Source: Crambe crambe
Taxonomy: Eukaryota > Porifera > Demospongiae > Poecilosclerida > Crambeidae
Reading direction: 5' to 3'
Length of the DNA stretch: 64,000 bases
NCBI GenBank assembly: GCA_963924555.1
Contig: OZ004583.1
Span: 2,885,501-2,949,500 of the forward strand
Shown: positions 116 to 45,174 of the stretch, one piece after another
Position numbering within the stretch: the first letter of the stretch is position 1
Layout: each line of letters opens with the position of its first letter
Translations under genes and position numbers: made by a program
Notes under the pieces: model-generated
Told to the model about the DNA's origin: nothing
Databases searched by the model: none
What the model saw: only the letters and a program-made list of their open reading frames with translations

Positions 116-1499
116 ATATTGATGAATGTTCAGATGACATTGACACCTGTGACTTTAATGCCACATGTGTAAACATTCCTGGAAACTTCACCTGCATCTG
201 TAACCAAGGATATAGTGGTGATGGACTTATCTGCGATGGTAATTAAAAATCAAACTATGTACCATTCATCTAGCACACTGTAGTTAGTTATAATTATGAA
301 ATATTAGACATTGATGAGTGTGAAGTTGGTACTGATAACTGTGACTCTAATGCCACATGCAATAACACTATTGGAAGTTTCACCTGTGTCTGCAATGAAG
401 GATTCAGTGGAGATGGAAGAACTTGTATTGGTGAGAAGGAATAATGAATTTTTTGTGCAGTAAAGTTTTGAGTGATATAGCTAGCTAGCTAGCTACAATA
501 CAATTTTACCGTATGAAATTTTTCTCTGAAACTATGTAAATATAGCTATAATATTAATTGCAGATATCAATGAATGTATATCTGACAAAGACAATTGTGA
601 TTTTAATGCTACATGCACCAACACTCCTGGAAACTTTACCTGTGTTTGTAACCAAGGATACAGTGGAAATGGTGTGATATGCAATGGTAGGTAGTCTTTA
701 CAATAATGTTGAAATCAGGCCCTGAAATGCAAAAACCTCTGTAATTAGATCACTTGGCTATCCTGTTGGCTAACTATGTTAGCTATCCCTTGATGAGTCA
801 TAAGGACCTAGCCCACATTTCTGTCCCTGGGGTCCAAAAAGTGCATGCATGGCCACTTTGATAGATACAATAACAATATTCTGTTTAGATATTGATGAGT
901 GTGCTGTTGGTTCTGATAACTGTCACTCTAATGCTACATGTACTAACACTCCTGGAAGCTTCACATGTGCCTGTATGCAAGGATTTACTGGAGATGGCAT
1001 CTTGTGTAACAGTGAGTATAATTAAGCCATGAAGCTATTATTATAGTCTACATCGCAATTATATATGTGAGCTTAATAGAATATGCAAGTCACATTATGT
1101 AAGAGAATCTATAAATGTACAATGTGATGTGATATGAGAGTGAAGAGTGTGATTATCTCTGCTCTTTTCTTCTAGAATACCCTACAAGTCAGTATGCTAT
1201 TAATTCTATAGCTAGCCATTATTTCTCAGGATAATAGTATAGCCAATTATTTTTATATAGCCATGAGATAACTATGACATTATCCTTTTAATATTATTAT
1301 GCCGTTGAAAATTAATATCTATGCAGCACAAAGTCAAGGACTTACTGCAGGACAGGTGGCTGGTATTGCAGTTGGAGGTACAATTGGAGCTATTTTTTCT
1401 ATCTTTATAGTCGGAGCTGTACTAGGCTATGCTCAGGTTATACACATCATAAGAACGACACCATCCAGCAATGGACGAGTACCTCTTTTAGAGTCGTAA
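116..1499 (+). CDS. Gene A: 3' part of an EGF-repeat single-pass membrane protein (5' end outside window)
   Basis: Four EGF exons are visible at 116-238, 308-430, 564-686 and 889-1011, each 123 nt, phase 1-1, with AG acceptor and GT donor. Each encodes a six-cysteine calcium-binding EGF module opening with D-[IV]-[DN]-E-C and carrying the Asn-hydroxylation pattern C-x-N-x4-[FY]-x-C. The last exon, 1327-1499, encodes a short stalk, one hydrophobic helix ([20 protein letters not shown] and on) and a short tail ending RVPLLES. A possible 12-nt exon at 1176-1187 would fit between them in phase. The protein is expected at the cell surface with EGF modules outside. It is the upstream neighbour and paralogue of gene B, about 580 bp away. 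The upstream exons, and whether it has Ig modules, cannot be known from this window. Confidence 0.85.
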
Positions 1500-2082
1500 T
1501 AATCACAATGTAGCTACCACATTGAATTTATCATTTATATAGCTAGTAAGCTAGAATATCAATTACTTTTTCATGCTGAGTAATGATTACGACTTAAATG
1601 ATGACTCTAATTGGATGCATATAATTATGTGAAATTCATCATTATTGTGAGTGGTTAAATTACTCGTCTGGTGATTTCTAGCTAGGTTCAATTTTCTAGA
1701 GAGAAACCAGTGGGGCGACCAGCCAGAGAACTTAGATGTACGTTCATTAAATACTGTATCATATTAGCCAGCTAAGAGTAGTGTCTGGCATGGTTTTAAT
1801 AGAATTGGGTATCAAGGGCATAATTGTAATTGAGCCGCATGCACCAATTAGAAGCTCTTGGTATTATTATAATTTTTACTCGTAGCTAGATAGTATACTA
1901 AGCTTATTACCAAGTATTTTGCTAAAAGCTGGCTCATTCTCTTGTGTAATGCATCATCATCACGGCTTGCATTGAGCATGCGCATCAGCTGGCCAGCTGA
2001 TCTGAGCGAGGAAAAAAAAAGGACAGCAACAAAAACGCCTCAACTGGCTACGTAACTGCTAGCTAAGAATCTGGGGAGGAAA
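1500..2082. other. Intergenic spacer between genes A and B
   Basis: No gene is seen. The only notable site is GCATGCGCA at 1977-1985, an NRF1-like half palindrome about 100 bp before the gene B start. Similar sites lie upstream of genes C, D and the 3beta-HSD-like gene. Confidence 0.5.
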
Positions 2083-5000
2083 ATGTCTCGCTCTCATCTG
2101 GAAATTACTGGTTTATGTCTACTGACGTTTATCATCACAACCGGAACTGCTCACTTCAAAGGTGCTGTCCTTCAGTGGCGCCCAAACAATCCAGATCCCG
2201 ACCATTTTCAAGGAAAGGTACAGCTTGCTGTCAACTAGCAGTGCACGATATTAAATGATCTAGCTACCTAGCGAGTTCAAGCTATAGGCCTATACGTATT
2301 TTTACAAAGAAATAAGAATAACAATAATGACAATATGTAATACCTTAGCTCCAAAAAGTGGGAGAGACTAAGCTTGTAGAATACATGGTACTAGGAAAAG
2401 GCACCATTCCCCAAAATATGCGAGGGTGGGGAGATACGAGGGGGGAGGGATCTTGAGCATACATAACTATAGCTAACTAGCTAGCTAATGTCAATTTCAT
2501 GGAGTTAGATGATACACTGACATTATAAGATTCATACCCCACAATAGCTAGCCCCCCTAGAGTGACATTAATAATATATAAACATAATACATATTAGCCA
2601 CTTTACATTTGAAGATTTATCTTGTAATGGAATACAGCATAGCTATCTATGAAGCTAGGAAGCACAAACATACTATAACTAGCAGTATGATGTTTGTTAC
2701 AGAGCTATCTAGGTGTTAGACGGTAATTATGTCATGCTACATTTAGCTACCAGTTGTTAACAAGTATATTATGGATATTTACCTTTTGATGTGTGTATAT
2801 TGTAGGATATGTACATAATAGGATTTGTGCTTTGGGTTCCTGATAGGTGAAAATTGTTAAACAGAAAAACACACTACACAGTAACTAATGGTCGGTAATG
2901 GGTCATTGAAGTTACGTAGAAAGAGAAATCATTTGCTAGTTGCTAGCTATGATAGCTATGAACATGATCAAATATCACCAAAAAACTCGATATCCATTAA
3001 TTTTCCTACAATAAGCTATTTCATTCAAACCGGATAATTAATTTTGTCACAGATCATTGTTCATTACTACATATCTTGGAATATCAATGGTGATGCAAAT
3101 GACACGCATATTGTTGATGATTGTGGGTCAGGGGATCACAACGACACATTGGGGAATCTAACCTGCTCTGTTGGATGTACTGGTAATATTGGAGCGTTGG
3201 ACTTTCCATGCTCAAGAGTTGATGTTTCTGAGAATGAAGCAACAGGGGAAGGGACTTTGATCAGCACTTTGATGCCTCCTGGTCTGAACTATTTCGAAGC
3301 AATGTATGTGAGACCATGATCAGCAATGGTTGTATGTACAGTATAGGAATGCTCTATATTAACAACAATACTATACCCCCCCAAGGCGAAATTCCTAGAT
3401 GAAACCCTGTCAACCGGACTACGTACATTTTATAGGTATGATGGAGAAGAGTGGTCACATGCTGTGACAATTCCTGGCAATCGTCGCTGGAGATTAAGAG
3501 TAGTTGGCAATCTAACTGTGAGACCAAATGGTGTGATAAATTCTTCACCAGTCACTTTAATCTCATCAAGTGTTGGACTGCAGGAGAATTGTGGAACCAT
3601 GAATATACCAGGTGAAAATCAAGTCATGTGTCATGTGAAAATAGCTTTCATTATACCAACTTACTTGTTTACAATAATTCGGATAAATACCCGTGATACA
3701 CACTGCACCAATCAGTTCTCACTACCAAGTTGACTTCCTTGTTTGCCATGATGAGGAAGCTTGTATATTAACATGGTGGGGAAATCAGAGGAATCCAATT
3801 ACCATCAAAGGATTACATATACGTACCATCAGTTGTGCATGGACACTTTTAGGAGTCCCTATAGGAAAACAAAAGTGCCTCTATAATTATTAGGGAGTTA
3901 GAAGTGATTACACAACTAATTATTTCAGGGCTTGTGAAGTAATTTAAAAGTATAATTTCTTGGATCAGTGAAGTAGCTAATAGTTATTGTGCACAGTGCA
4001 GAGGAAATTTCCATAGTAACATTGTATTTATCATACCGGTACATGGTTGCTGAGCACCTTAGTGTTAGGTGAAAGTAGAGGAGGGAGGAGTGTGTGCTAA
4101 TATTTATTTGATGGAAACACTTGATAAAGATCATACAAGCATCACATGCATGTGCTTGCTGCATTGAGCTAGCATTGATAACAATGTGACTTCACCACTT
4201 CAAAGAAAATTAATGGCTGATTTTTATATATTATTTTTAGTGCTTGATGCTGATGGAGACATAATACGCTGTCGTTGGGCAAATGCAAACTCATCTGAGT
4301 GCGGGGGAGTCTGTAATGGACTTCCAGATAACACACTCTCAATTGACAAGGTATGACTGATGCACACATGCCCTGGAATACAGTATTATTTTCAGAGAGT
4401 AAAACTTGGTTTATAAAGAATGTGATGTATGAACCCTTTGGGAATTTGAACTCGTATTTCCCAACACAATTGTCTACATGTTAATTTTTACAGCTAATAG
4501 CTTGTAATTATAATTGCTAATACAATTATAAAAGATTTACAGTATTTACTATACTAATAGGATACATGTACTCTTACCTACTCTGGTGGAGTAGGAGTAT
4601 TTGCTGTTGCGATACAAGTTGAAGATTTCCTCACTCCGTCCAGTCAGACTCCACTCAGTAGTGTGCCTGCTCAGTTCATCGTCAATGTGTCCAACACATC
4701 AATGACATGTCCTAGTCCACCCATTCTCACTGGAGAAACTCCTATTAATGGTTCTCACATAACAATACCAAGTGGGATGGTGTACAGGGCAAGCCTTGTT
4801 GCTGAATCTGTGGACTCAAGGTTAGATATCATTGTGACTCAATGCACTAAACTATTGTTGCAGTGTACTCTAGCTGACTTATTCAATTCAGCTGAGGTAT
4901 AGGATTACTTATTGATTGTAATCAATCCCCTTTCTCATAGTTCAATTAATTAAGCACTATCAGATTACTTTCCTTTAAATCATGCACTATCTACTGTAGC

Positions 5001-5567
5001 TCCAGGTAGCTAGTGGCAAAACGTTTCACAGTATTGTAGTAGCTAATGTTACAAGTCAATGTACGTAATTTTGTGCAATTTATCTACTTTAAGGTAAGGA
5101 TCTTGCTGTTCGGGGCATAAATAATAGCTAATAATCATAAGTCAAGCAAAGGATTAAATGTATCAGCAACTTGGAGTCTGGGTATACTCATCCCTTCTTT
5201 CTACTGTATGACTTGTTATCATAACTCTGTTTTTGCTATTGTATATCATATTAACTTTTATCTATCTTCATGTATCCAATTCAGAGTTGTATCATTTCGG
5301 ACCTTTGCACCACCAGGAATGATGACTTCCAGGGTGAACCAAAGCATGTCTAACGGTCAATTATATTTCACTAATGTTACATGGACACCAGCTGAGGACC
5401 AGCACAATAGGAGTCATTTGTTTTGTTTCCTTGCCGTGAGCAGTGAAGGGTGAGGCTACACATAGTAATGTTACATACATACGTAGTTGCAATGAAAGAG
5501 TTTACATAATTTCACTTATTTTTTAGGATATCCTCTGATAAATGGTGTGTTACTCTTGTGCCGGAAG
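2083..5567 (+). other. Gene B conserved N-terminal region (exons 1-7)
   Basis: About 380 residues before the first EGF, conserved exon for exon in genes C and D. Recognisable blocks are H-F-x-G-A-x-x-Q-W at the mature N-terminus, a cysteine-containing block (DCGSGDH to TCSVGC), a block ending in [10 protein letters not shown], the block R-C-R-W-A with SSECGGVC, then [13 protein letters not shown], and finally [12 protein letters not shown] with FCFLAVS. The last block resembles the P-x(n)-D-Q-x(n)-F-x-F-x-V edge of bacterial and metazoan putative-Ig (He_PIG-like) beta-sandwich domains; that is inference. I do not recognise a named family for the whole region. Confidence 0.7.
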
Positions 5568-8500
5568 GTAAATGACTAAGTTTAAATAGTGTAATGGACA
5601 AAAAAATTATTAAGTATATGTAGCAACAGCTAGTCATTGTTCTATTATAAAAGGCAGATCATAATTGAAGACCCTGACTGGTTTAAAAGGGAGGGGGGAC
5701 TTCACCTCTCAATGTAGATTCCCTGAAGTTATTATCAGGACTTCTGACATATATGGGGATATGTACCCTCTCTCTAATCAATGTAGTCTGCGTTGAGATG
5801 GCGTTTATTAATGAGCTGTACATAGATAGCTATGTATAACTTGAAAATTGTCAAAAGTCATGGTAATAGTTCATTATAATACTTACATGGCCAGACATTG
5901 ATGAGTGTGCTATCGGTGCTGACAACTGTGACTCTAATGCCACATGTACCAACACTCTTGGGAGTTTCACCTGTGCCTGTAACCAAGGATATGCTGGAGA
6001 TGGAAAAGTCTGTACTGGTATGCACAAAATGTGGTGTAATTGTAGTTACATGTAGAAATAGAATATCACCTCAAATGAGTCTATTAAATTTAGTGAGATT
6101 TAATTCACATTATGCATATATACATGACAACCCCTTACCAAAATAATTCAATGTTAAGTGATAACTTTTATTCCAACTGCATTTAATTTCTACTATGCTT
6201 CTTTTGGTATATTGGGGGAAATGCCAACTTAAAAAAAAAATTAACATTAGCTAATCACCACTTTATGTACATGCAACAATCACTTACGTACAGTAGCTAC
6301 AATGTGTTACTTTATTATTTGGCAGCTCTTGAATTGGTTATGCTATCGAATGACTCGTTTTTCATGCTTGGAGACACTGCCCTGCTCACATGTGTGGGGC
6401 ATGGTGAGCCTAACGTTCAAATCACTTGGAGTAAGGATGGACAGAACATCATGAATGATTCTCGCTTTGCCATCAGTGATAAAGAAGTGACTCAGAGGGG
6501 GATGATATTCAAACAATCTTTCCTTGCGGTATGTAGCTTGGAGGTTTCTGATGCTGGTGACTATACCTGCACTATCAGTAATGGCCAGGCTTCAATCCAA
6601 GCCATCATTGAACTCACTGTCTTTGGTAAGAATAATAATAACATGATAGCTAGTCTATCACTTGATACGTACCTCAATCATTAATTTTTTTTTAGGCTAG
6701 TGTTCATGTTTCTGGTCAGGATTCTTCCTAACCATACGGGGTGGGCGGTAGTTATACCATTTTTATTCATTGTCCATTTTTTATCATCACAAGTACAAAG
6801 CACTTTAAGTATGCAGCTGCTCAGCTGAATAGCTATGTAAATAATGGCGTTTGGAGCGGTGCCAATTTTCCAATGCGGGCGGTTGACCAGAAACATGAAT
6901 AATATCATTAACACTGGCCTTAACTACTAACCTTCTCAATTCTTAAGCAAATTTCGAATTTCAAACACCAGCTCATAGAGTGGGTGATCAGCTCTCTATT
7001 ATGCTTTAAATGTGAAATTTGGTCAAACGTTAGAGCTCAGCTGCTCAGCTGAATAGCTATATAAATAATGGCGTTTGGAGCGGTGCCAATTTTCCAGTGC
7101 GGGCGGTTGACCAGAAACATGAATAATAATTATCATTAACACTGGCCTTAATTACTACATGTAACTTTCTCAAATTCTTAAGCAAATTTCGAATTTCAAA
7201 CAGCAGCTCATAAAGTGGGTGATCAGCTCTCTATTATGCTTTAAATGTGAAAAATTTGGTCAAACATTAGAGTAGATAACAAGGTAGCTATCAAACGAAT
7301 GCAAGAGACATTTTAGTTTCATAGAGATAATAATAATCGTAACTTACGTATCAGATGTTAATGAATGTGAAATCGGGACGCACAATTGTGATCCCAATGC
7401 TAACTGTACCAACACTCCTGGGAACTTCACCTGTACCTGTAACCAAGGATACACTGGAGATGGGAGAACTTGTGATGGTGAGTCATATATAATATTCTTA
7501 ATATCGAAGATAATAATAATTACTATACGTATGTAGATATTGATGAGTGCTTGGCTGATAATAGTAATTGTGATCACAATGCTAACTGCACCAACACTCC
7601 TGGGAGCTACACCTGTATCTGTGACCAAGGATATAGTGGAAATGGAACAACTTGTGATGGTCGGTCATAATTATAATTATACTTAATGAAGGAAATCTAA
7701 CATTAAATTTTAATTAATATCATAGATATTGATGAGTGTTTGAACAATAATTGTGATCCCAATGCTAACTGCACCAACACTATTGGAAGCTTCAACTGTG
7801 TCTGTAACCAAGGCTACAGTGGAAATGGAACAACATGTTCTGGTAACTACGTAACTTCTTCTGGTAACTTCTATAATAGTTAATGCATGATTCAACTAAT
7901 GCCACAGAACCATAATTAGAACTGACAATAATTAGGGGGGGGAAGCATTTCTAGGCCTTGGATATGAGCTTAGTCAGCTTCATATTAGCATCCAGAGATC
8001 ACAGACGACAAGTCAAAACCCTATTGGAGGTACTGGCATAATTATAGCACAACTTTTTCATAGACTACAATATCTGGCTAGAACCCTCAAGAAACCAATT
8101 ATGACCTTATTTTAATGCTAACCTTATTTTAATGCTAACCTTAATTGGTAGTGTATAAGATTTTATAATAATTTGATTAATGAGCTCAAATAGATTAATA
8201 CAACTTGCATAACTCAACGACTGACCAATGACACAGCATAACATATGAAAATTTTCCAATTGCACATTGACGCAATGCCCGAAAATGATAGGCATAACAC
8301 GACTCACAAAACATTACGGGTAGTAATAGCTATTATTCATGCAGTTCAACTTGAACTTGTGACGATATCAGATGATATCTCCCTGACAATCGGAGAATCT
8401 GTTCTGTTAACATGTGTGGGATATGGCCAGCCTTACATACTTATCACATGGGAGAGAAATGGAGAAAGACTAATGAACGATACGAATGTTATCATCTCTG

Positions 8501-11500
8501 AACAAAATTTTACTCAGGGAGGAAGGTTGTTGAGGCAGTCTGCCTTGTCTCTATGCAATCTTGAAATATCAGATGCAGGTAACTACACCTGTACGGTCAG
8601 TAATGGTCAAGCATCAATCACTGCCTCCTCTACCATCTTTGGTAAGTGTAACTATTTGCATGTGGTGTAATATTATTTCGGCTAATTTAGAGCTCTACAT
8701 AATTACTTCATTAAGAAAGAAAATCCATAATCAGAGAGTGCGGTAGCACTCTCTATGTAGGGATGACTCAGACGGCCGCGCGCGCCGCCTATAGACTAAT
8801 ACAAAAGTGAAATTCTAGTTCCCCCACTTAGACCTAACAAAAGCTACTGTGAATGATTATCCAGCCTACTAGAGCCTACTACAATGTGCAGACCAGGGAG
8901 CTTACCATTTCAGAAATACGGCAAGCAAGTAAATCGCTGGATTCTTCTTCTTCTCTATGATTATTATTATTATTATTCTTAGATAACCATATCTCTCGAA
9001 CCACTCAAGCTACAGCTATGATTTCTGGATAAATCCACTCCAAATTCTACGAACTACGATCTTTTCTACTCGTTGATCCTCGAAAGAGTCGATGAAAAAG
9101 GAGACACTACAGAGCACAGCACTCGACTAATTCAATTAGGAAGCCATCTTTTCTATAATACGCATGCGCATGTATTTGATATCGAAATTATAATATTACT
9201 CAGCTGTCTCTAGCTAGCTAGCTAGCTAGCTCTAGCTAACTAATGATGATAGACTACTGTATAGACTCAGGGATTTAGATTCACCACGGTAGACTCTATT
9301 TCAGCATCTTCGACCTCCAAGCCAACTCAACAATAACACAACACCTTGACTCGTTGATAATGATTGGGCTGGTATGCTGGAGAACTATTGGAGAACCTGC
9401 ATACACATAGAAGAATGAACTCTATACATAGCTAAAACCATAAAAGAGAGGAAAAAAGACCAGGAACAAGTAAGGGAAAAAGCATTTCTTGAAATGAAAA
9501 AAGATGTAGGGATGACCACTGCTCAAAGATGGAATCTTTGTTCTGTATATCCAGCCAACAATCCCTACATATACGTACATTACTACACTATAATCTGAAG
9601 CTACCCGATGCAACGTATATGTAGGGATTGTTGGCTGGATATACAGAACAAAGATTGATCACATTCCCTTATTGCATGTGGAGTGTCTGAATTTGTGTCA
9701 TTTTATTTATGCAGCTCTTGAATTGGTTATGATATCTAATGACACATCTTCACTTTTTGGAGACACTGCTCTACTCGGTTGTGTTGGGTACGGCCAACCT
9801 TATGTGCTGATCACCTGGAGCAAGAATGGAGAAAGTATTACAAATAATTCTCGTGTCACTGTCAATGAGACAGAAGTCACTCAAGGGGGAATGTTATTCA
9901 GACAGTCCTTCTTGGAGCTGTGCAGTGTGGAGTTCTCTGATGCTGGTAACTATACCTGCACACTCAGTAATGGCCAGGCAACATCTAATGCCACCTCCGA
10001 ACTTATTATCCTTGGTAAGAATACTATGTGATGTGATTACACAAGTCATAGTAGCAAGAACAATCATACCATGCTATAACAACTGTAAACTGGATAAACT
10101 CACCGTGCGGGTGAATTTTAAAGTTTTATGATAATTATTTGGAAACATATTTTACTTGACTTCATGCATATTCAGACCATGCATGCCCACTTAAAAATTC
10201 ATAAAAGAAAATTATGATTGACAGTAGAAATAATTATGAAAAATAAATTAGGGTGATATAAAACATAGTGAGAGTTGGGCAAGTGTTTGCAAAATTGCTA
10301 GCTGAATTCAGCTACAGAGAAGCTTACCTGTTTCTCTTGTCATGAACTGTTTATCCATACACTAATGGACTTAGCAAGCGCTTCTTTCCCAGACTCAGCA
10401 AACACTTACATTATGGCCCTTCCTATACATAATACGTAGCAATATTTTATGAAAGCTATTTGCTATATTAGATAACAATGAGTGTAATGAAGGCACTCAC
10501 AACTGTGATACTAATGCTACCTGTACCAACACCCCTGGAAGCTTCACCTGTGCCTGTAACCAAGGATATAGTGGAAATGGAACAACGTGTGATGGTGAGT
10601 GCATTGAATATTTAACAAAAAACAACAACAACAACAACAACAACAATCATTATAGATATTGATGAGTGTATGGCTGGCATGGAACTTTGTGATCCCAATG
10701 CTAACTGCACTAACACTCCTGGGAGCTACACCTGTGCTTGTAACCAAGGATACAGTGGAAATGGAACAACTTGTGATGGTGAGTTATTAGAGGATTGATT
10801 AAAGAGCTAACATCAAAACATGAATATAGATATTGATGAGTGTTTGGCTAACATGAACAATAGTTGTGGTCCCTTTGCTAACTGTACCAACTCTCCTGGG
10901 AGCTTCACCTGTACTTGTAACCAAGGATACACTGGAGATGGAATGACTTGTGATGGTGAGCTACAGCATTAGATATTATAAAAATAACTTTGACCAATAT
11001 GAATAATAATTTAGATATTGACGAGTGTATGGTTAGCATGAATCTTTGTGATCCCAATGCTAACTGCACCAATACTCCTGGGAGCTTCACCTGTGCCTGT
11101 AACCAAGGATACAGTGGAAATGGAACGACTTGTTCGCGTAACTCTCTAATGATAAGCATTAAAATGTTACGCAGAATCCCATAGCATTAAGGATAGAAAG
11201 AGGAGGGAGGTGTACCATTTCATTGTTGTTGTTGTTATTGTTGTTGTTGTTTTTGTTGTTGTTGTTGTTTTTGTTGTTGTTGTTGCTGTTGTTGTTGTTG
11301 TTGTTGTCGTCATCGTTATCATCATTGTAGTTGTTGTTGTTGTTACTGATAGTTAATTATTGTTCATGCAGTTGAACTCGAACTTGTGGCAATATCAGAT
11401 GATCTCTCTCTAACCATTGGAGAATCTGTTCTCTTAACATGTGTGGGATATGGCCAGCCTTACGTACTTATCACATGGGACAGAAATGGAGAAAGACTAA

Positions 11501-25022: not shown

Positions 25023-25106
25023 CACCAGGATACTTGCAGATTATGGTCTATTGCAGGGAAGGCTCCATAGGGGGCAGCAACTGCCCCCTGGTACATAGGA
25101 GGTCAT

Positions 25107-25108
<2 letters not shown>

Positions 25109-25144
<36 letters not shown>
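25109..25144. repeat. Homopolymer C tract (36 bases)
   Basis: Uninterrupted run of 36 C; the length may be a sequencing or assembly estimate. Confidence 0.9.
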
Positions 25145-25146
<2 letters not shown>

Positions 25147-25173
25147 CAATAATTGTGTAACATGATTTAATTG

Positions 25174-32100: not shown

Positions 32101-35100
32101 CTGGTGCTAATGACTGTGGCTCTAATGCCACATGTACCAACACTCCTGGGAACTTCACCTGTGCCTGTAACCAAGGATACAAGGATTGAAAAAGGGGTGG
32201 AAAGAGGAGGGAGGTGTACCATTCCATTGCTGTTGTCAGGTACATAGCCAGGATTTTATCATAGGGGGTGTTTAGAATATCTGCATGGAAAAATATTTTT
32301 GCCTAGCCATGCCTACTTCCCCATACCACAGCTTTTGATAAACCGTGCCCACTTGAAGTAGCAGACAATTAGCTAATTAGCTACTAGTTAAGAGAGTTGT
32401 AGATGACAAGAGTGACATCTGACAAACTCGTCTACTACTTTCTCTATGTTGACATCAATATCCCTGTGAATGTGGAGCATGGTTCACCATCCTAGTCGCC
32501 CCGCCCAATTATCATTAGTCGACCTTTGAACTAATAGTAACTAGCTACTTTAGAGCATTAGCAGAAGTAGTTAGCTGTGAAACAAGACAGTTTAGCTCAA
32601 TTTGAGCTTGGTGGATCTGGGAGAAATTATTAGTAAGTACGTATGTAGATCGGTAAATCTTGGTTTGTTTTAATAATTACCTAGCAATTTACAAATCCGG
32701 TGATGCTCAAAGGGGGTGCTCGAGCCCCCTGAACGGCTACGTGCCTGGTTGTTGTTGTTGTTGTTGTTGTTGTTATTGTTGTTGTCATAGTCGTTGTTTT
32801 TGTAATAAATTATCAATTTTTCATGCAGCTGAACTTGAACTTGTGGCAATATCAGATAATATCTCTCTAACCATTGGAGAATCTGTTCTGCTAACATGTA
32901 TGGGATATGGCCATCCTTATGTACTTATCACATGGGACAGAAATGGAGAAAGACTAATGAACAATACAAATGTCATCATCTCTGAACAGGATTTTACTCA
33001 GGGAGGAAGGTTGTTGAGGCAGTCTGCCTTATCTCTATGCACTTTTGAAATATCAGATGCAGGTAACTACACCTGCACAGTCAGTAATGGTCAAGCATCG
33101 ATCAGTGCCTCCTCTACAGTCTTTGGTAAGTGTATTTGTGTGTGGTATATGTGCTAATTTATAGCTCTACATAATTACTTCATTAGCTACAGTATAGAAG
33201 AAAGAAAAATTCCATATAATCAGAAAGAGCGGTAGCTCTCTCTATGTACGTAGGGATGACGCGAATGCCAGCATGCGCCACATATAGACTAATACAAAAG
33301 TGAAATTCTAGTTTCCCAACAAAAGCTACTGTGAATGATTATCCAGCCTACTAGAGCCTACTACAAAGTGCAGACCATGTTTCAGTACCAGGGAGCCTAC
33401 CATTTCAGAAATATGGCAAGCAGGATGTAAGTCACTGGATTCTTCTTCTCTATTGTTGCTATTATTCTTCTTTAGACAACCATTATCACTCGAACCATTC
33501 AAGCCACAGCAAGTAGCTATTTCTGCTCCATCTATGATCTTTTTTACTCGTCAATCCTCAAAAGAAAAAAGAGACACTACGGAGCACAGTACTCGACTAA
33601 CTTTTTGTTTACTATGCATGCATGTGCATGTATTTGATATCATAGTATTTCTCAGCTAGCTAAGCTATAAGCTAGCTCTAGTGCTAGATCATAGACTACT
33701 CTATCAATTCAGGGATTTTAATCCATCTACAGGTAGACTCTACAGGGCCGTAGGAAGCACAGTGGCCAAAGATGCCATGGCCTCGCCACTTTTTTGGGCC
33801 AGGACTGGAAAAAGCCACGATAGTCACGTAGCTGCTCAAAGGTCTTAACCACACCCTTAACCACACCCAAGGCCTCTCCACTTTAATTTTGCTTCCTATG
33901 GTCTTGCTCTATTTCAGATTCATCTGCATCCTCGACCTCCAAGTATAGCACAACACACTTCAAGCCTTGACTCGCGGATAAATAATCATTGGGCTGCTAT
34001 GCTATTAGAGAACTATTCTTTTTTCATCTTTCCCTGTATAGCTACATGGAAGAATGAACTCTATACATAAAACCATAAAAGAGAGAGAGAGAAAAAAGAC
34101 CAGGAACATGTAGCTATAGCTAAGGGAACCATTGCTTGAAAAAGGGTAGGGATGAAGGATAATAATGGAATCAATTGGATATACAGAACAAAGATTGATC
34201 TTTCATCCCTACCCTTGTTTGAGCAGTTGTCATCTCTATACATTTTGTTTCATTTCACAGAACTGTTTTTCCCCTTGTAAGTGTAATTAAAAACTGTGTC
34301 TGCATATGCGTAGTTATTAGTGTTGATTTATATTTTGTATTCATGCAGCTCTTGAATTGGTTGTGATATCTAATGACACATCTTCACTTCTTGGAAACAC
34401 TGCTCTACTCGGTTGTGTTGGGTATGGCGAACCTTATGTGCTGATTACCTGGAGCAAGAATGGAGAAAGTATTATGAATAATTCTCGTGTCACTGTCAAT
34501 GAGACAGAAGTCACTCAAGGGGGAATGTTATTCAGACGGTCCTTCTTGGAGCTGTGCAGTGTGGAGTTCTTCGATGCTGGTAACTACACCTGCACACTAA
34601 GTAATGGCCAGGCAACAACTAATGCCACCTCTGAACTTATTATCCTTGGTAAGAACACTATTACACAAATTATAGTAGCAAGAACAATCATACCATGCTA
34701 TAACAACTGTATACTAGATATACTCATGTGCGGGTGAATTTTATGATATTTGAAAACATATTTTACTTGAATCATTTATTGGTAAATGCATTCAGACCAT
34801 GCCCACTTTAAAAATTCATAAAAGAAAAAATGATTGCAGTAGATGAAAAATAAATTAGGGTAATACGAAACATAGTGAGAGTTGGACAAACAGTAGCTAG
34901 TTGCAATAATAATGTATTATGGTGTTGGAAAAAATTGCTAGCTGAATTCAGCTAACAGAGAAGCTTGCCTGTTTCTCTTGTCATGAACTGTTTATCCATA
35001 CACTAATGGACTCAGCAAGCGCTTAGCTATGACCCCTTACCAGACACAGCAAACATTATTATGGCCCCTTCCTATACATAATACATAATACGTAGCAATT

Positions 35101-38100
35101 ATATAGCTATTTACTATATTAGATAACAATGAGTGTAATGAAGGCACTGACAACTGTGATACTAATGCTACCTGTACCAACACCCCTGGAAGCTTCACCT
35201 GTGCCTGTAACCAAGGATACAGTGGAAATGGAACAACTTGTGCTGGTGAGTGCATTGAATATAAAAAATTAACATCAACAATCATTATCAGAGAGTGCGG
35301 TAGCACTCTCTATGTAGGGATGACTCGGACGGCCGCGCGTGCCGCCTATAGACTAATACAAAAGTGAAATTCTAGTTCCCCCACTTAGACCTAACAAAAG
35401 CTACTGTGAATGATTATCCAGTCTACTAGAGCCTACTACAATGTGCAGACCAAGTCTCAGGACTAGGGAGCTTACTGTTTCAGAAATACGGCAAGCAGGT
35501 AAATCGCTGGATTCTTCTTCTCTATTATTATTATTATTATTATTCTTAGACAGCCATATCTCTCGAACCACTGAAGCTACAGCCATGATTTCTGGACAAA
35601 TCCACTCCAAATTCTACGAACTACGATCTTTTCTACTCGTTGATCCTCGAAAGAGTCGAAAAAAGGAGACACTACAGAGCACAGCACTCAACTAATTCAA
35701 TTCAATTAGGAAGCCATCTTTTCTATAATACGCATGTGCATGTATTTGATATCTAATTATAATATTACTCAGCTAACTCTGCTAGCTATCTAGCTCTAGA
35801 TAATGGACTAGGGAAAAAGCATTTCGTGAAATGAACAAAGATGTAGGGATGACCACTACTCAAAAAAGTAAGGAAACAAGAAGGATGGAAATGGGATCAA
35901 TCTTTGTTCTGTATATCCAGCCAACAATCACGTTTATTACTGCACTATAATCTGAAGCTACCCGACGTATATGTAGTGATTGTTGGCTGGATATACAAAA
36001 CAAAGATTGATCCCATTTCCATCCTTCTTGTTTCCTTACTTTTTTGAGTAGTGGTCATCCCTACATCTTTGTTTATTTCGCAAAATGCTTTTTCTCTTAC
36101 TTGTAGATATTGATGAGTGTATGACTAGCATGGAACTTTGTGATCCTAATGCTAACTGCACTAACACTCCTGGGAGCTACACCTGTGCTTGTAACCAAGG
36201 ATACAGTGGAAATGGAACAATTTGTGATGGTGAGTTATTAGTAATTAGAGGATTGATTAAAGAGCTAACATCAAAACGTGAATATAGATATTGACGAGTG
36301 TTTGGCTAACATGAACAATAGTTGTAGTCCCTTTGCTAATTGTACCAACACTCCTGGGAGCTTCACCTGTACCTGTAACCAAGGATACACTGGAGATGGA
36401 AGGACCTGTAATGGTGAGTTACGGTAGTATTAGATAATAAAAAAAATGTAACTTTGAATGTAGATATTGATGAGTGTATGGTTAGCATGGAACATTGTGA
36501 TCCCAATGCTAACTGCACCAATATTCCTGGGAGCTACACCTGTGCTTGTAACCAAGGATACAGTGGAAATGGAACAACTTGTGATGGTGAGTTATTAGAG
36601 GATTAATTAAAGAGCTAACATCAAAACATGAATATAGATATTGATGATCTGCACTCCAAAATGCCCCAGGCATACATTATAGTGTTGTGCAATAGTAGCA
36701 CCCTGCACAAACATAATGCCATGCTCAATTGTACTTCCTAGATTGATTTCTACAGCTTTATGGGTAGCCAGGCATAAGTATCAAGTGGATTGTAGACACT
36801 AGGCTGATCTAAGTGCTTTAAGATAAACATTACAACTTTCTATGTATGCAGCTGCCTTACATATAACTCACAGCAAAATCTTCTAAGGAGTTAAAGTACA
36901 AATGAATATCACCACAAAAGCCTAGCTACTTACTCGCTCGCTCGCTGTGATTCAAATGTTGTACATTACCCTAGATTGATAATAAACATTGAAACATGAA
37001 TATAGATATAGATGAGTGTGTGGCTAGCATGGACAATGATTGTGATACTGATGCTAACTGTACCAACACTCCTGGAAACTACTCCTGTACTTGTAATGAA
37101 GGATATACTGGTGATGGAATAACTTGTAATGGTAAGTTATTTTACTTGCATTGATGATAGATCTAACTTTGAAGCACATAGATATTAATGAGTGCATGGC
37201 TGATAATTGTGATCCCAATGCTAACTGTACCAACACTCCTGGGGGCTTCACCTGTACCTGTAACCAAGGATACACTGGAGATGGAAGAACTTGTGACGGT
37301 GAGTTATTATTATTGCATTGATAATAGATCTAACTTTGAAGCACATAGATATCAATGAGTGCATAGCTGATAATTGTGATCCCAATGCTAACTGTACCAA
37401 CACTCCTGGGAACTACTCCTGTACTTGTAACGAAGGATACACTGGAGATGGAAGAACTTGCGATGGTGAGTTATTATTATTGCATTGATAATAGATCTAA
37501 CTTTGAACCACATAGATATCGATGAATGCATGGCTGATAATTGTGATCCCAATGCTAACTGTACTAACACTCCTGGGAGCTTCACCTGTACCTGTAACCA
37601 AGGATACACTGGAGATGGAAGAACTTGTGATGGTGAATTATTATTATTGCATTGATAATAGATCTAACTTTGAAGCACATAGATATCGATGAATGCATGG
37701 CTGATAATTGTGATCCCAACGCTAATTGTACCAACACTCCTGGGAGCTTCACCTGTACTTGTAAAGAAGGATACACTGGAGATGAAGAGATTTGTAATGG
37801 TTAGTTATTGTATTGCATTGATAATAGATCTAACTTTGAAGCACATAGATATCAATGAATGCATGGCTGATAATTGTGATCCCAACGCTAACTGTACCAA
37901 CACTCCTGGGAGCTTCACCTGTACCTGTAACCAAGGATACACTGGAGATGGAAGAACTTGTAATGGTGAGTTACATTTTTATTGCATTAATAATAAATCT
38001 AACTTTGAAGCACATAGATATCGATGAATGCATGGCTGATAATTGTGATCCCAATGCCAACTGTACCAACACTCCTGGTAACTACACCTGTACTTGTAAC

Positions 38101-39849
38101 CAAGGTTACACTGGAGATGGAAGAACTTGTGATGGTAGCTAAGTTATTATACTTGCATTGATAATAGATCTAACTTTGAAGCACATAGATATTGATGAGT
38201 GCATGGCTGATAATTGTGATCCCAACGCTAACTGTACCAACACTCATGGGAGCTTTACGTGTACTTGTAAAGAAGGATACACTGGAGATGGAGAGACTTG
38301 TAATGGTGAGTTTTTTATTGCACTGATAATAGATCTAACTTTGAAATACATATAGATATCAATGAATGCATGGCTGATAATTGTGATTCGAATGCTAACT
38401 GTACCAACACTCCTGGGAGCTTCACCTGTACCTGTAACCAAGGATACACTGGAGATGGAAGAACTTGCGATGGTGAGTTATTATTATCGCATTGATAATA
38501 GATCTAACTTTGAACCACATAGATATCGATAAATGCATGGCTGATAATTGTGATCCCAATGCTAACTGTACCAACACTCCTGGGAGCTTCACCTGTACTT
38601 GTAAAGAAGGATATACTGGAGATGGAGAGACTTGTAATGGTGAGTTATTTTACTTGCATTGATGATAAACATTGAATCATGAAAAATTATAGATATTAAT
38701 GAGTGTGTGGCTAGCATGGACAATGATTGTAATTCCAATGCTAACTGTATGAACACTCCTGGGGACTACTCCTGTACTTGTAACCAAGGATACACTGGAA
38801 ATGGAAGAACTTGTGATGGTGAGTTATTGTTATTGCATTGATAATAGATCTAACTTTGAAGCACATAGATATTGATGAGTGCATAGCTGATAATTGTGAT
38901 CCCAACGCTAACTGTACCAACACTCCTGGGAGCTTCACCTGTACCTGTAACCTAGGATACACTGGAAATGGAAGAACTTGTAATGGTGAGTAATTTTACT
39001 TGCATGCATTGATAATAAACATTGAAACATGAATATAGATATAGATGAGTGTGTGGCTAGCATGGACAATGATTGTGATACTGATGCTAACTGCATCAAC
39101 ACTCCTGGAAACTACTCCTGTACTTGTAACAAAGGATACACTGGAGATGGAATGACATGTGATGGTGAATTATTACACTTATATTGATATGGGAAAAAAA
39201 CAAAAAACTTTGATTAACGTGAATGTAGATATTGATGAGTGTATGGCTAGCATGGATCTCTGTCATCCCAATGCTAACTGTACCAACACTCCTGGGAGCT
39301 ACACCTGTGCCTGTAATGAAGGATACAGTGGAGATGGAACAACTTGTGAAGGTTATTCTATGACATGACATTTACGTAGCTAGAAATTGGCCATCGCTAG
39401 GTAAACCATTTCATTCAAACATGGAGGAAAATAATTCTCCCCAAGACTGACTATCTCAACATCCCCAAGGCTATAGATATCATAATGACTATCTTGTCAG
39501 CCCCAAGGCTATAGACATCATAATTATAATGACTATCTTGTCAGCCCCAAGGCTATATAAACATCATAATTATGATGACTATCTTGTCAGCCCCAAGGGA
39601 GAACTAACTGTAACATAATGAAAAAGTGGATGACTCTAAATCTCATCATAATATTAATGACTAAAAACCTCATTGTACATTGCCTATTTAGAATTATCTG
39701 CAGGACTTAGTACAGCAGCGAAGGCTTGTATTGCAACTGGGATTGGAGCTGTCTTCATACTTCTGTTAATAGGAGCTGTACTCGGTTATGCTCAGATTAT
39801 ATACTTCATAAGGGTCCAAAAAACTGATGAAAATGCATCTCTTTTATAA
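26169..39849 (+). CDS. Gene C: EGF/Ig-module single-pass receptor-like protein, paralogue of B
   Basis: Modelled as 31 exons and 1491 aa. Exons 1-9: 26169-26300, 27700-27956, 28164-28342, 28460-28569, 29023-29288, 29968-30129, 30698-30741, 30853-30941, 31217-31409. EGF: 31934-32056, 35123-35245, 36107-36229, 36288-36413, 36464-36586, 37006-37131, 37182-37298, 37349-37465, 37516-37632, 37683-37799, 37849-37965, 38018-38134, 38189-38305, 38356-38472, 38523-38639, 38693-38818, 38869-38985, 39039-39164, 39229-39351. Ig: 32829-33125, 34349-34648. Membrane exon: 39692-39849. The signal peptide is followed by [12 protein letters not shown]. Exons 8 and 9, encoding about 94 residues with [17 protein letters not shown], have no counterpart found in B or D. 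The module at 38523 has D-I-D-K-C instead of D-I-D-E-C, which should weaken calcium binding. The tail ends DENASLL. Donors at 26301 and 37800 are weak (GTTATT, GTTAGT). Confidence 0.85.
27124..27621. repeat. Tandem duplicated intron segment in gene C intron 1
   Basis: Copies at about 27124-27311 and 27380-27621 share CATGCTA, GTCTTCTGC, GGGGTATCCTG and a long C/T-rich run (CCCCTCCCC type) ending TATATCCCAT. The pyrimidine runs are strongly strand-asymmetric. Confidence 0.75.
31598..31780. repeat. (GTAT)n microsatellite, about 180 bp
   Basis: Nearly perfect tetranucleotide tract in the intron after gene C exon 9. It creates long spurious open frames on both strands. Confidence 0.95.
32093..32188 (+). 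pseudogene. Dead EGF exon in gene C
   Basis: The sequence encodes [16 protein letters not shown] and CACNQGY, but the start of the module (the D-x-D-E-C segment) is absent and no in-phase acceptor is available. The end runs into GATTGA, a stop, instead of the final Cys and a donor. It lies 36 bp after a good EGF exon (31934-32056), so it is a decayed module. Confidence 0.8.
32237..32747. mobile_element. TIR element related to 24163-25022
   Basis: Terminal inverted repeats CAGGTACATAGCC and GGCTACGTGCCTG; about 511 bp. Inserted in or beside the (GTT)n tract before the Ig exon 32829-33125, so the target duplication cannot be resolved. Confidence 0.65.
33221..34258. mobile_element. Foldback element copy 2 in gene C, with an insertion
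   Basis: Colinear with 8732-9670 (shared GCGGTAGCTCTCTCTATG, GAATGATTATCCAGCCTACT). It is interrupted at about 33742-33909 by a segment whose ends GGCCGTAGGAAGCA and TGCTTCCTATGGTC are inverted repeats. It ends just before the Ig exon 34349-34648. Confidence 0.65.
35288..36098. mobile_element. Foldback element copy 3 with a near-perfect 122-bp hairpin
   Basis: Begins with the palindrome AGAGAGTGC-GGTA-GCACTCTCT. Its right half is an inverted repeat with arms at about 35810-35931 and 35976-36098, only a handful of mismatches, and a loop of about 44 bp. The right arm ends about 8 bp before the acceptor of the EGF exon at 36107. Confidence 0.8.
36638..36648 (+). pseudogene. Truncated EGF exon stub
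   Basis: After an intact acceptor (AATATAG) only ATATTGATGA of an EGF exon remains, then MITE sequence begins. The preceding intron matches the intron before a complete homologous exon at 10830, so a module was lost here. Confidence 0.75.
36649..36947. mobile_element. CAGCGAGC-type MITE, copy 4 (truncated)
   Basis: Reverse orientation like copy 3. It begins inside the element at TCTGCACTCCAAAATGCC and ends CTCGCTCGCTCGCTG. Similarity with flanks of other copies may extend to about 36974. It replaces the body of an EGF exon. Confidence 0.7.
37140..38650 (+). repeat. 167-bp tandem array of EGF exon plus intron (nine units) in gene C
   Basis: Exon starts at 37182, 37349, 37516, 37683, 37849, 38018, 38189, 38356 and 38523 give periods of 166-171 bp. 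Each unit holds a 117-nt EGF exon encoding a module with [11 protein letters not shown] and an intron of about 50 bp with GATAATAGATCTAACTTTG. One unit has I for M, one has K for E. A tenth related unit is at 38869-38985, after an unrelated module. Confidence 0.93.
39440..39600. repeat. Minisatellite near the gene C membrane exon
   Basis: About four imperfect units of 40-56 bp sharing GACTATCTTGTCAGCCCCAA, in the intron before the membrane exon. Confidence 0.8.
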
Positions 39850-39984
39850 CTAGCTAGTATTTCACAAGCTATCAACTTGAGACTATTATTGACTTTTATA
39901 ATTATAGATATATAATTATAGATAGTGGCGATATCTATATTCTTAGCAGCAATAGATAACCTTACAGTCCTCCCTCCCTCCCTC

Positions 39985-40050
<66 letters not shown>

Positions 40051-41280
40051 TAAGTATAAGTCAAGCTACAACCAGATAACTACACTACATACCACAAACT
40101 TATACATTATGCATAAAAATTAAATAACATGTACAGTAGAGCACATGGTGAAAAAAAGAAAAAGACTGACATGACATGTGTAGTATAACAACTACTATTC
40201 ACAGACTCACATTTAGATAGAGAAAGTATAGGCAACTAAAATCAATAGGCAAACCCATAATCAAACCTAAGAATCAGCCAATGTGGTAGCTAGCTTACAC
40301 ACCAGAAGCCAACAGATACAAGTATAAGTCACGTGATGTCACTTAGAAGTCACAAGACAGGCAATCAAGAGGCGTATCCTACAACAACACAGTCCGGACT
40401 CCTGTGGGAGTGGTCCCACCCTTTTCATAGCTAGCCACCTGCATATAGCTAGCTAGCTAGCTAGCTACACCTCTAAAACCCTCAATACTATAGAGTGCAA
40501 AACCTATCCCCTTACACTATACTAACTAAGTGATCAGTAGTCTCTGGTCATGAATCGGGAGAGGGGATCACCAAAGGAGGAATTCATTTCAAGGGGGGCA
40601 CGTACGTTGTACCCATGTGGTTCATTAATACTGACCTATACAGTGCAGGTCAATTAACTCTCGATCTTGGCATCACCCTTTTTCCTACACTCTGACCTAT
40701 TTACCTTCCCTATTAACTTCCATCTATATTTGCATGTCAGCTAATAGCTTCCTTTTGTGGCCACAGCAGGACGTTGATTGATGCTGATAATAATGATAAT
40801 GATCATGATAATAATTGTGCACACACCACACACTGCCTACAAAATTACAGTTCAAGCTTCAATACTCTTACAAAATATAACCTCCAAAAGATGATGACCT
40901 CTCTACGAAGGAACGGGTCACAATTGTATCCATTACATTCATGAGTTTTGCATGTCAAAGCAACTTATGGATACACTTTTCATGAGTTTTGCATGTCAAG
41001 GCAACTTATGAATACACTTTTTTGGCCAACCTAACACTACAAGGTGGCAAAAGAGGGTTGCATTTCAATAGGAAAGCCAAACATAACAGCAGCTGCTGTT
41101 ACCAAACAGTATAGGATGTAATCAATTCAAACTTTTTGAGAGAGAGAGAGAGAATTATGATATCAATAGTGATCAAGCTAAACAAATATATATTAACTAG
41201 CTAAGCAAAGATAACAGTGGCTAATATATAAACTATTAGATACAGCAGCATAGCTACATAATACATAGCTAATTACTCAA
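39850..41280. other. Intergenic region between convergent genes C and D
   Basis: No gene seen. Contains (CCCT)n/(AC)n microsatellite at about 39966-40048 and a (GA)n stretch at about 41138-41152. The segment CATGAGTTTTGCATGTCAA is repeated at about 40943 and 40982. Confidence 0.6.
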
Positions 41281-44200
41281 TCAGTAAATGGTTACAGATG
41301 GATCGTGGTCAGCTGATGGTTTCTGGTCCACACATTTTTCTTCATCAGCATACTTTTGAACTGGTTCCTTGGTGATGTACTCCTTGTGCCTTCGCCTTCT
41401 GTTAGTTACACATACAATGCAGACTATTATCAAACAGCAACAAATGAGTACAAGGAAGATGAACGCAATTACTCCCAATGCAATGCCGGTCTTTTGTCCA
41501 GGTGTGAGTCCTCTTCTTGGTATTCCTATTATAAACAGAAATCATTATGTATGGCATGTGATAGGACTTTTTAATAAAGTATTTACGATCTGTATTGCTC
41601 TTTAATGGATGTCATAATTATTCCAAATTATTATTGACTATAATATACAGCTATTTTTATAGTAAAAATCCACAGAAAATCTCTATAACAATTGTACTTA
41701 TTCATGTACTTACTTCTGCACATACTGACACCATCTCCACTGTATCCTTGAGGACAGAAACAGAGGTAACTCCCATTTGAGTTGGTACATATAGCAGTGG
41801 GTAAACACCTGGCAGTGCCCAAGGCACATTCATCAATATCTATTGCAATGATACAATAAAGTTGCACCATGAAATTAATTAGCTGTAGTTAGTGCAAAAA
41901 ATTGACCTGCATGTTAACCATGTAATTTTCTTTTATTTTTAATTTTTTAAAATCTTGATACGTATTTTGTGCAACGAAAATTTCCCATCCAAACAAAGCT
42001 GGCAAGAATTCAGCTAGTTCTCACTAAGATGAAGAGTGTCCCTACTGGAAGGCACAGGGTTGGATTAATAATAACACATCTAGCTATGGGAGTCACAAAG
42101 TGTCCTTTCTATGTATAGACATCGAGATATTGTCCTTTAATTGAGGGGCATACTGTAAGTTATTATAACATACCAACACAAACTGTGCCATTTCCACTGT
42201 ATCCTTGGTTGCAAGTACAGGTGAAACCTCCATAAGTGTTGGTGCATGTGGCATTAGAGTCACAGTTGTCGGTACCATCCATACATTCATTAACATCTAG
42301 GAAAAATGTATGAGGATATTAATTTCTGCATTTAATTTCTTAAGGTAGAGTAGTTGTTTTTTTTTTAAATAATATGATTCTAAAATAGTAATTCTACCTT
42401 CACAAGTCATCCCATTCCAAATAAAGCCTTGCTGGTTACAGGTACAAAAGAAACTCCCAGGAGAGTTAACACATGTGGCATTGACACCACAGTTGTCAAT
42501 ACCACCTTCACACTCGTCAGTATCTGGAAAGCAATTGATGACATTTACTGTTATTGATAATCATGTAACAGTGTCCATTATAATTATGGAGGTTCTATAT
42601 ACTGATTATAATGAATGTGTCTTAGCTTATTGCTACAATTAAAGGTCAGGGGTTCCACAAGAGGTTCCAGATTATAAATGCATGCATAGTTGTGCATACA
42701 TGTACGTACGTACCATCACAGGTAATTCCATTTCCAGTGTATCCTTCGTTACATGTACATCTGAAGCTCCCAGGAATGTTAGTACAATTTGCATTAGGGT
42801 CACAGTTGTCAGCACCAGTGCTACATTCATCCACATCTGTTGGGTATAATAAAAAGTTTCATGATGTTACACACACATAATTCAGCAGGCTATATTGGTG
42901 GATGAACTGAGCAACCATGCAAGCTTGATTTTATACAATCATATGTATTTTTTGCTATCCCACAAATATTATTGTCTATGATTATGCTCACTTAGCAAAT
43001 CATGAGCAAGAAACTTAGGTGAGGGCATGTGCATGAGCTTGCCAATGTTAACTATGTATGAAATTACGTCATGTGTTAACCTGAAACATTAAAAGTTATG
43101 CAACGCCTTTCAGTTGATTGTCTATAAAAACGATAAAGAAAGACTATAATGATCATGTTACATTTGTAGACTATAAGTATTCATAATGACAAGACTTACC
43201 CTACATCATTCTCAGCCGAGAAACAAAATATCTCTTGACCAAACTGATCTGGTGTTGGTGTCCAAGTGACATTAACAAAGTAAAGCTGATCGTCTGAAGT
43301 GCTCTGTGACACACTGGATAGTGCTAACCCAAGTGGTGATTCTGTTAGGAAGGTTCTAATGCTGCATTGGAATAACAAGAATTATTTCATAACAGCTCTG
43401 CAGCTGCAATAGCTATGCAGCTGGACTAGCTACATAGGTGGGTCTACTGTACTACTGTACTATACGAGCTGGATCATACTACAATTAAGGTGGGTCATAT
43501 GCTGGGTCATACCAACAAGCTGGGGCATACGTACAAGCTGAGTCATAATACGTACACACCTGTGGCTTTGGCTTTGAGAAGATGCTATAAGACTTGCTAT
43601 GTATTGTACTCCAGGTGATACTTGTACGATAGAGTGGTCAGCAGGTGTTACCCCAACAAGTATTGGTCGTGAGTCACATTGTGTTGATATACTGACGACT
43701 TCAATCAGGAATTGAACAGGTACACTGCTGAGTGGTGTCTGACTGGATGGAGAGATGAAATCTTCAACTTGTATTGCGACACCAAATCTTCCCGTTGCTG
43801 TACCATTGTATGATAAGATGCAAGTATTCTATAAGGATAAAGATTAGTTGAAATACTGGAATTTCCATCTTTCATATTTACTTGATCGAGTTCTGAGTTT
43901 GGAAATGCATTGCAAATAGAGCCACACTCCCCCATCGTAGAATCAGCCATGCGGCAGCGTACTTCATCCCCATCAGCATCTTGCACTATTACCAATCAAT
44001 AAAATTAAAATTAATTAAACACAATCATAGCTACTTTTAATTGTACTAGCTACAGTAGAAATTGAGGTTTAAGAAATTAATTCTACCCCACGAAAAGTGT
44101 GTACTATGTATACAGTATAAGCTGTAGTAGATTATACATGAAGAGTCACAATCATTTTCATACATACCTGGTATTCTTATGACATCACCACAACCCTGCT

Positions 44201-45174
44201 GCAACTTGAAAACAGGCCTGACTAGTGCTATCGGTGAAGTGTTTATTCTACCATCAGGTCTTCGAGTGAGATTTCCTCTCACTCTTAAATCCCATCCTTC
44301 GTTTCCTCCTCGTTCTAGGGGGACCCAATTGCCACCACAGAATCTATACACATGATATACATAACAGGCTAAGTTTAACCCAGAATGCACAAGTTAAATT
44401 TATTTCGAAGTTATTTATTATGTTTTCCAATCCCATTTTTAAGCTATTAATGTGAGTATGAAATATCATGGATGTAATGAGGATTATATGCTTCTCACTA
44501 CAACTGGCAAACTTCATCATGACAAAGAAGTGATGCATGGGAGAAGGATTGAAAGAGTTAACATGCAAGTTTCCTATCCCATGTACGTAGTCTATAGTGC
44601 ATATATCTATGGCACTAGAGATAGAGCTATGGTTAGTTAATGATGATCTTACTGTGCCTCAAAATTGCCTCTTGTAGGAAAAGTCCATGGGATCACACCT
44701 CGCCCTACCACCGACTCACTATCTCTATCACTGCAATTGAAATTTAAGTTTCCCAGCTGTGGTGCACTGCAGTCATTAGTGGTAACAGGTGGTTGTCCAC
44801 ATCCACTGCGACACCTAAGCACATCTGAACTGGTCGCCAAAAAAAATGTCGAAAGACTTGGATCACAGGTCAAATATGATGGTAATTGATTTCGATTATA
44901 ATTAATTCTCCAGGCAATGCGGTACACAAATTCAACCTGCATAAATAAGTGAATAACTATTAAGCTAATTGCAGTATAATGCCAGCAGGTTATTAAATTA
45001 TAGCTAGCTAGCTAGCTATACTATAAATGTTAGCTAGCTACTAGCTTTTACCCGTCCATCAAAATTGTCTCGATCAACAGGTCGCCACTGTATAATGGCT
45101 CCTCTGAAATGAGTGGCATTCGTAAGATGAATGGCGACCAGAAAACAAACTAGGACTTGCAGGTGGCAACTCAT
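41281..45174 (-). CDS. Gene D: EGF-module single-pass receptor-like protein, inverted paralogue
   Basis: Exons in transcript order: 45174-45052, 44936-44653, 44343-44168, 43985-43882, 43828-43560, 43361-43200, then a short exon not identified, then EGF exons 42836-42714, 42523-42398, 42296-42174, 41839-41714, and the membrane exon 41525-41281. The signal peptide is followed by [12 protein letters not shown]. Exons 2-6 match the N-terminal region of B and C in phase and nearly in length. No Ig module is seen. Exon 6 ends phase 2 and the EGF exon needs phase 1, so a short exon like B 5527-5567 must exist or the gene is damaged. The second EGF is odd ([10 protein letters not shown]). The membrane helix ([20 protein letters not shown]) is followed by RRRR and a tail of about 40 residues with EYITKE and KYADEE, unlike B and C. 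Expected at the plasma membrane. Confidence 0.8.

Follow-up and report, generated by a model that had tools for sequence, protein, structure and literature searches.

What kind of molecules is encoded by the clustered EGF/Ig genes of the sponge Crambe crambe, and whether these molecules serve the recognition of self, is the question raised by the locus C5:2885501-2949500 (the window, i.e., the whole analysed stretch of 64,000 nucleotides, in a genome of 143.1 Mb and 119 contigs). The sponge adhesion and self-recognition molecules beyond the aggregation factors are poorly known, and an earlier note on this DNA had proposed here a modular receptor cluster akin to the invertebrate allorecognition or adhesion complexes. 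The reading that we favour, and regard as reasonably probable, is that the cluster would encode type I membrane, calcium-dependent adhesion tethers, with a shared head on block-duplicated stalks; their role, as judged from the sequence, is likely the adhesion of cells to one another or to the matrix, with a possible selectivity according to the head type.

Four related genes, A to D, occupy the first 45 kb of the window, and their exon models are sequence-only, with the AG/GT sites picked for an open frame and GT-AG imposed. Gene B (2083-23652, plus strand) contains 39 exons coding for 2106 amino acids in a frame open throughout, with 24 EGF and 7 Ig exons; gene C (26169-39849, plus strand), 32 exons and 1517 amino acids, with 19 EGF and 2 Ig exons; and gene D (45174-41281, minus strand), 12 exons and 633 amino acids, with 4 EGF exons and no Ig. 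Thus, the modular cluster described in the earlier note is real, and its module counts agree with those of the open models B, C and D; of the four genes claimed, these three are complete in the window, and gene A is present by its 3' end only, with the head and eight more EGFs lying upstream, from C5:2878229. The features of the window are as follows:

1-1496, plus strand: 3' end of gene A, with four EGF exons (115, 307, 563, 888) and a membrane exon with a short tail (1338-1496).
2083-5567, plus strand: gene B head, seven exons (2083-2217, 3053-3303, 3436-3611, 4241-4350, 4561-4820, 5285-5449, 5527-5567), 379 amino acids, no Pfam family.
5895-23105, plus strand: gene B stalk, made of 24 calcium-binding EGF exons plus 7 Ig exons, all of a length divisible by 3.
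12113-17253, minus strand: LTR retroelement, inserted into an intron of gene B and not belonging to the receptor, with LTRs at 12113-12411 and 16955-17253 (299 bases, identical).
23495-23652, plus strand: gene B membrane exon, 12-residue tail and stop.
26169-31858, plus strand: gene C head, ten exons, the extra Big_5-like module being exons 30853-30941, 31217-31409 and 31781-31858.
31934-39351, plus strand: gene C stalk, with 19 exons for EGF and two for Ig (32829-33125, 34349-34648).
32094-32180, plus strand: incomplete, decayed EGF module, of the same kind as in gene A, within a gene C intron.
39692-39849, plus strand: gene C membrane exon, 12-residue tail and stop.
41281-42836, minus strand: gene D EGF exons (42836-42714, 42523-42398, 42296-42174, 41839-41714), then the membrane exon (41525-41281) with a tail of about 40 residues.
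43081-45174, minus strand: gene D head, seven exons (45174-45052, 44936-44653, 44343-44168, 43985-43882, 43828-43560, 43361-43200, 43121-43081), 386 amino acids.

Past the right edge of the cluster, a 3Beta_HSD match (a steroid dehydrogenase-type gene) is located at 47867-49156 (plus strand) of the window.

The EGF and Ig modules scored far above the Pfam cut-offs in the parts scanned (single exons, B residues 1-921 and all of D), with EGF_CA repeats above the cut-off in B residues 1-921 and in D; in the rest of gene B and in the gene C stalk, the modules were called by cysteine motifs, 18 of the gene C EGFs by the first motif and one more by its start, DIDKC, at 38522. Calcium-binding EGFs carry a characteristic beta-hydroxylation motif, which is fitted by all EGFs of the three genes (24/24 in B, 19/19 in C, 4/4 in D), and the stalk should, therefore, be a calcium-stiffened rod. 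RGD was found in none of B, C and D, so that there is no hint of an integrin partner. An exon length that is a multiple of three is the usual condition for the frame-safe gain or loss of a module, and the module exons of B (31/31) and C (21/21) are all divisible by 3. In gene B, an Ig pair followed by an EGF run makes up a unit that occurs three times.

The cluster extends well beyond the window: eight head-bearing genes are found within about 195 kb of C5, two more are about 0.4 Mb off, and ten head copies are on two other contigs, C20 and C1. Upstream of the window on C5, there are the EGF-only genes g1, g2, g3 (minus strand) and g4, and then A. The models of g1, g2, g4 and A, which omit the small exon 7, are open from the head to the membrane exon and contain 19, 69, 12 and 12 EGFs, respectively; g3 shows an open run of 46 EGFs, with the head not modelled through exon 6. 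Sorting of the EGFs at 80% identity gave a barcode, in which a block of seven EGFs occurs once in A and in g4 (the latter with one unit variant), twice in g1 and nine times in g2 (with small variants among the nine copies), followed by the same four EGFs in each of these genes, and a block of five EGFs is repeated in g3. This barcode and the repeated unit of gene B indicate that the stalk length shifts by whole blocks, in line with the module gain and loss noticed earlier. The decayed modules, also noticed then, number one in the window (the partial EGF at 32094-32180, found with seven query modules), and the clearer wrecks lie upstream in C5, where stray head exons and frame-broken remnants are scattered between the genes; gene F, which has no exon 6 match and has exon 2 in two pieces, is for this reason possibly a wreck as well.

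Related modules are met elsewhere in the genome. Long arrays of Ig exons, 53-72% identical to the gene B Ig, are found at C19:6412997-6434152 and C14:6395073-6398292, on contigs with no head match. Among the best 150 of 2517 EGF candidates, large EGF_CA clusters lie at C19:4.82-4.85 Mb and C20:4.56-4.87 Mb, with no head match there, and several of the C20 EGF matches are paired, with equal scores, about 227 kb apart.

The one intronic element of the window that was examined is the LTR element of gene B, whose identical LTRs speak for a recent insertion. In its frame, the integrase precedes the reverse transcriptase, which is the Gmr1-like order.

Each of A-D has a single hydrophobic span in its last exon, by hydropathy only (best 21-mer 2.2-3.6 on the Kyte-Doolittle scale), which bears out the one membrane helix of the earlier note. 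The membrane exons that close A, B, C, g1, g2 and g4 are related to one another, and that of D is of a separate kind. Counted from the first charged residue past the span, the tail has 12 residues in both B and C, 15 residues in A and some 40 in D. No cytoplasmic domain follows in the B, C and D models, which stop after these stub tails of about 12-40 residues. The one hint of signalling is the sequence LGYAQV/I, which A, B and C carry where the span meets the inner edge of the membrane and which has no counterpart in D; it fits a loose ITIM pattern, so that these three genes may signal through it; secreted forms may also arise via alternative splicing.

A receptor-kinase reading was considered and rejected, the genes of the window having stub tails and no kinase domain past the membrane span. 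Among the best 121 of 1944 kinase matches, none lies between 2.7 and 2.95 Mb of C5, and some lie about 0.1-0.3 Mb downstream of the window. The same set of matches contains tyrosine-kinase-like clusters at C16:4.98-6.05 Mb, on C17 and at C5:3.02-3.27 Mb; many of those on C17 and C5 cross stops, as introns would give.

The head starts with a hydrophobic stretch ending near HFxGA, judged by eye to be a signal peptide, as had been noted before. It comprises seven exons in B and D and about 500 amino acids in ten exons in C, so that the earlier size of about 380 residues stands for B and D, and the size of C is somewhat above the earlier one of about 470; the identity to the B head is 52% for C and 45% for D. 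The gene C head is longer because of an extra module similar to Big_5 (22.4 bits, just under the cut-off of 23.6), which recurs in gene G, in seven C20 loci and in three C1 loci, and its loss from B, D and the EGF-only genes is therefore probable. No Pfam family was matched at E up to 10 by the B and D heads and the first 368 residues of C, and nothing was found in the PDB with a three-row profile at the same limit. A bacterial origin was tried and rejected: 66 bacterial or archaeal genome stretches matched one of two peptide patterns, and tblastn gave 0 relatives. Hence, the head stays unassigned with respect to bacterial, Pfam and PDB sequences, as the earlier note had it, and it is not named in the accessible portions of the literature searched on the family and its setting.

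With head exon 5 as a query, the genome gave 20 matches (10 on C5, 7 on C20 and 3 on C1), and the modules associated with the head differ between these contigs. In L042, the one C20 gene of seven in which the modules after the head were read, EGF_CA and laminin-type EGFs follow above the cut-off, with a weak Laminin_N match (13.3 bits, cut-off 25.9). On C1, the head precedes bacterial-type Ig-like modules, and two of its copies lie in intronless frames of 890 codons (L018) and 2194 codons (L041). The former has an Ig-like Big_13 above the cut-off; the latter has such matches only below it, and the frame that follows it downstream gives an ig match slightly exceeding the cut-off; the EGF-like matches are below the cut-off in both. 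The frame L041 (C1:7199632-7206213, minus strand) stands out as an intronless head-bearing frame within an otherwise intron-rich family. In a tree of 14 heads, which included two of the seven C20 genes and left out gene F, the nine C5 rows made one group with moderate support (86/98), the placement of gene D being unsure because of its long branch. Joined as it is to laminin-type EGFs in one C20 gene and, on C1, to modules of the Ig-like type, the head gives the impression of a general extracellular module common to these genes.

Such sharing with a laminin-EGF gene, along with the long calcium-binding EGF arrays and the purifying selection on the heads and Ig modules, would suit structural matrix or fibre-anchoring proteins acting in the manner of fibrillin or laminin, without selective recognition. 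This alternative seems unlikely to us, in view of the membrane exons that end A, B, C, g1, g2, g4 and D and of the fast-changing loop in the head.

Over head exons 2-6, dN/dS was 0.26-0.64 in 43 of 45 gene pairs, the values of the distant pairs being rough owing to their dS of about 0.8-2.3. The exceptions were g1-g4 (1.06) and F-G (1.43), both very young pairs; positive selection in them was rejected, with Fisher p 1.0 each (four exons for g1-g4 and two for F-G), so that both are indistinguishable from neutral evolution. The Ig modules showed dN/dS of 0.14-0.61 in 20/20 paralogous, not allelic, pairs within two Ig types (the first Ig of gene B left out), so that the diversifying selection expected of the Ig modules of allorecognition receptors (Botryllus fuhc, Hydractinia Alr) was not seen among these 20 pairs.

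Within the five EGF-only genes, the variable codons are distributed unevenly along the head, in a scan of exons 2-6 with three extra g3 codons of exon 2 dropped: amino-acid-variable against silent-only codons were 38 vs. 9 in exons 2-3, 7 vs. 4 in exon 4, and 20 vs. 29 in exons 5-6. The densest 22-codon window fell in exon 2; by permutation, p was 0.033 for the five genes and 0.0018 for four of them. At the level of whole exons, a comparison that omitted gene F from exon 2, the pN/pS of the EGF-only genes was 0.88 in exon 2, 0.93 in exon 3, 0.21 in exon 5 and 0.16 in exon 6; for a loop of exon 2 chosen by eye, with the codon scan as a control, it reached 1.45 (five genes) and 2.85 (four). The first domain of the C-type heads was no faster than the rest, exons 2 and 3 both giving a ratio of 0.48, compared with 0.49 for exon 5 and 0.63 for exon 6. 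The loop stretch varies with indels in three C20-group genes, for which the ratio was 0.75 in exon 2 and 0.37-0.57 in the remaining exons; within the intronless C1 pair, the loop has nine gapped codons, with pN 0.143 vs. pS 0.440. As the loop varies in the C20 and C1 relatives too, it is variable family-wide, and its variability may reflect either selection or tolerance.

Moreover, the copies exchange head sequence. Heads g1 and g2 differ at 114 sites, and g4 tracks g1 except in patches that track g2 (permutation p = 1e-4), mainly C5:2866450-2866599, which covers the initial half of exon 2, and 2866750-2866899, which starts shortly ahead of exon 3 and reaches into it. Thus, g4 is a mosaic of the g1 and g2 heads, which fits ectopic gene conversion.

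The defining property of an allorecognition locus is a high polymorphism among individuals, with alleles that segregate with fusion. Such a locus, in which polymorphic heads or stalks decide fusion or rejection between individuals, would be consistent with the clustered multigene family with its wrecked copies, the rapidly changing first head domain of the five EGF-only paralogues, whose amino-acid changes are densest in exon 2, the g2-like sequence inside exon 2 of g4, and the EGF and Ig modules present also in Botryllus fuhc-sec (the part of PMC12065747 available). However, we consider it quite improbable: the whole-exon ratios of exons 2 and 3 are not above 1, the heads and Ig modules are constrained, the C-type heads lack a faster first domain, and the loop varies with indels in laminin-type and intronless relatives that share the head; the tails are stubs, the Calx-beta arrays among the matches listed are on other contigs, and the fast change of the head is a comparison of paralogues in one assembly. 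The paralogue-specific change in the head loop and the many copies, together with the wrecks and the recent retroelement insertion, as in fast clusters, might alternatively point to receptors that bind microbes or symbionts and have diversified through duplication and conversion; this is a rather remote prospect for proteins with no lectin or known pattern-recognition domain in the parts scanned and with no signalling tail. The allorecognition part of the earlier note was, therefore, not sustained, and its interpretation is supported in part, as a clustered family of modular type I membrane proteins that gain and lose modules, have wrecked copies and exchange head sequence.

The adhesion tethers may be pictured as follows. 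The head, presumably of two or three putative beta-sandwich domains, would attach to a partner that is carried by another cell or located in the matrix; the EGF stalk, stiff only with calcium, would set the reach of the head; and the stub tail would anchor rather than signal. The stalk length would be altered by duplication of whole EGF blocks, which places closely similar heads at graded heights, the EGFs numbering 12 in g4 and in A, 19 in g1 and 69 in g2, and the copies would swap head segments, most likely by ectopic gene conversion. A bolder version is length-coded recognition, in which each head type stands at a ladder of stalk heights made of 7-EGF or 5-EGF blocks, conversion and amino-acid change reshuffle the outer head loop, and the head variant and its reach together define the identity of a cell or individual; we think it highly speculative and improbable. 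The cluster offers a bounded gene set, with an unnamed head that a laminin-type gene also has and with stalks that form a natural series from 4 to 69 EGFs, by which the role of receptor reach becomes testable. Should the block numbers or the head loop prove polymorphic, the cluster would become a strong candidate for recognition; otherwise, it remains a clear example of an adhesion-type family that arose through the duplication of blocks.

Among the known systems, fibrillin-like and other calcium-binding EGF proteins similarly contain EGF_CA runs with the hydroxylation motif; the cluster differs in its unassigned head, membrane anchor, block-duplicated stalk and Ig pairs between the EGF runs. 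Fungal flocculins also bear a conserved binding head on a stalk of repeat-dependent length, an analogy only, as the domains are unrelated. Calx-beta repeats are the hallmark of the sponge aggregation factors, and none was found in the Pfam scans of B residues 1-921 and D; among the best 150 of 1021 Calx-beta matches, those on C10, C3, C13 and other contigs were found and none on C5. One such match, near C9 4224783 (minus strand), lies inside an open frame of 10,128 codons. The aggregation factors, described as proteoglycans in the available part of PMC8380372, resemble the cluster as large modular extracellular adhesion proteins, and Amphimedon grafts, according to the accessible text of PMC5450542, were reported to show no significant enrichment for genes of adhesion or of the aggregation factors. 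The Botryllus fuhc-sec and fuhc-tm share with the cluster the extracellular EGF/Ig modules and a signal peptide, and fuhc-tm also the type I membrane topology and a short tail; however, no such head is described for fuhc-sec (one Ig, two EGFs) or fuhc-tm (three Igs) in the portion of PMC12065747 at hand. The same source, as far as available, reports the fuhc genes as polymorphic, whereas the cluster is known from one assembly, and assigns ITIM or hemITAM to candidate receptors of Botryllus and Hydractinia (PMC12065747). Thus, with Ig and EGF modules joined in fuhc-sec and with such signalling motifs in the candidates, the likeness of the sponge cluster to these systems is real but loose.
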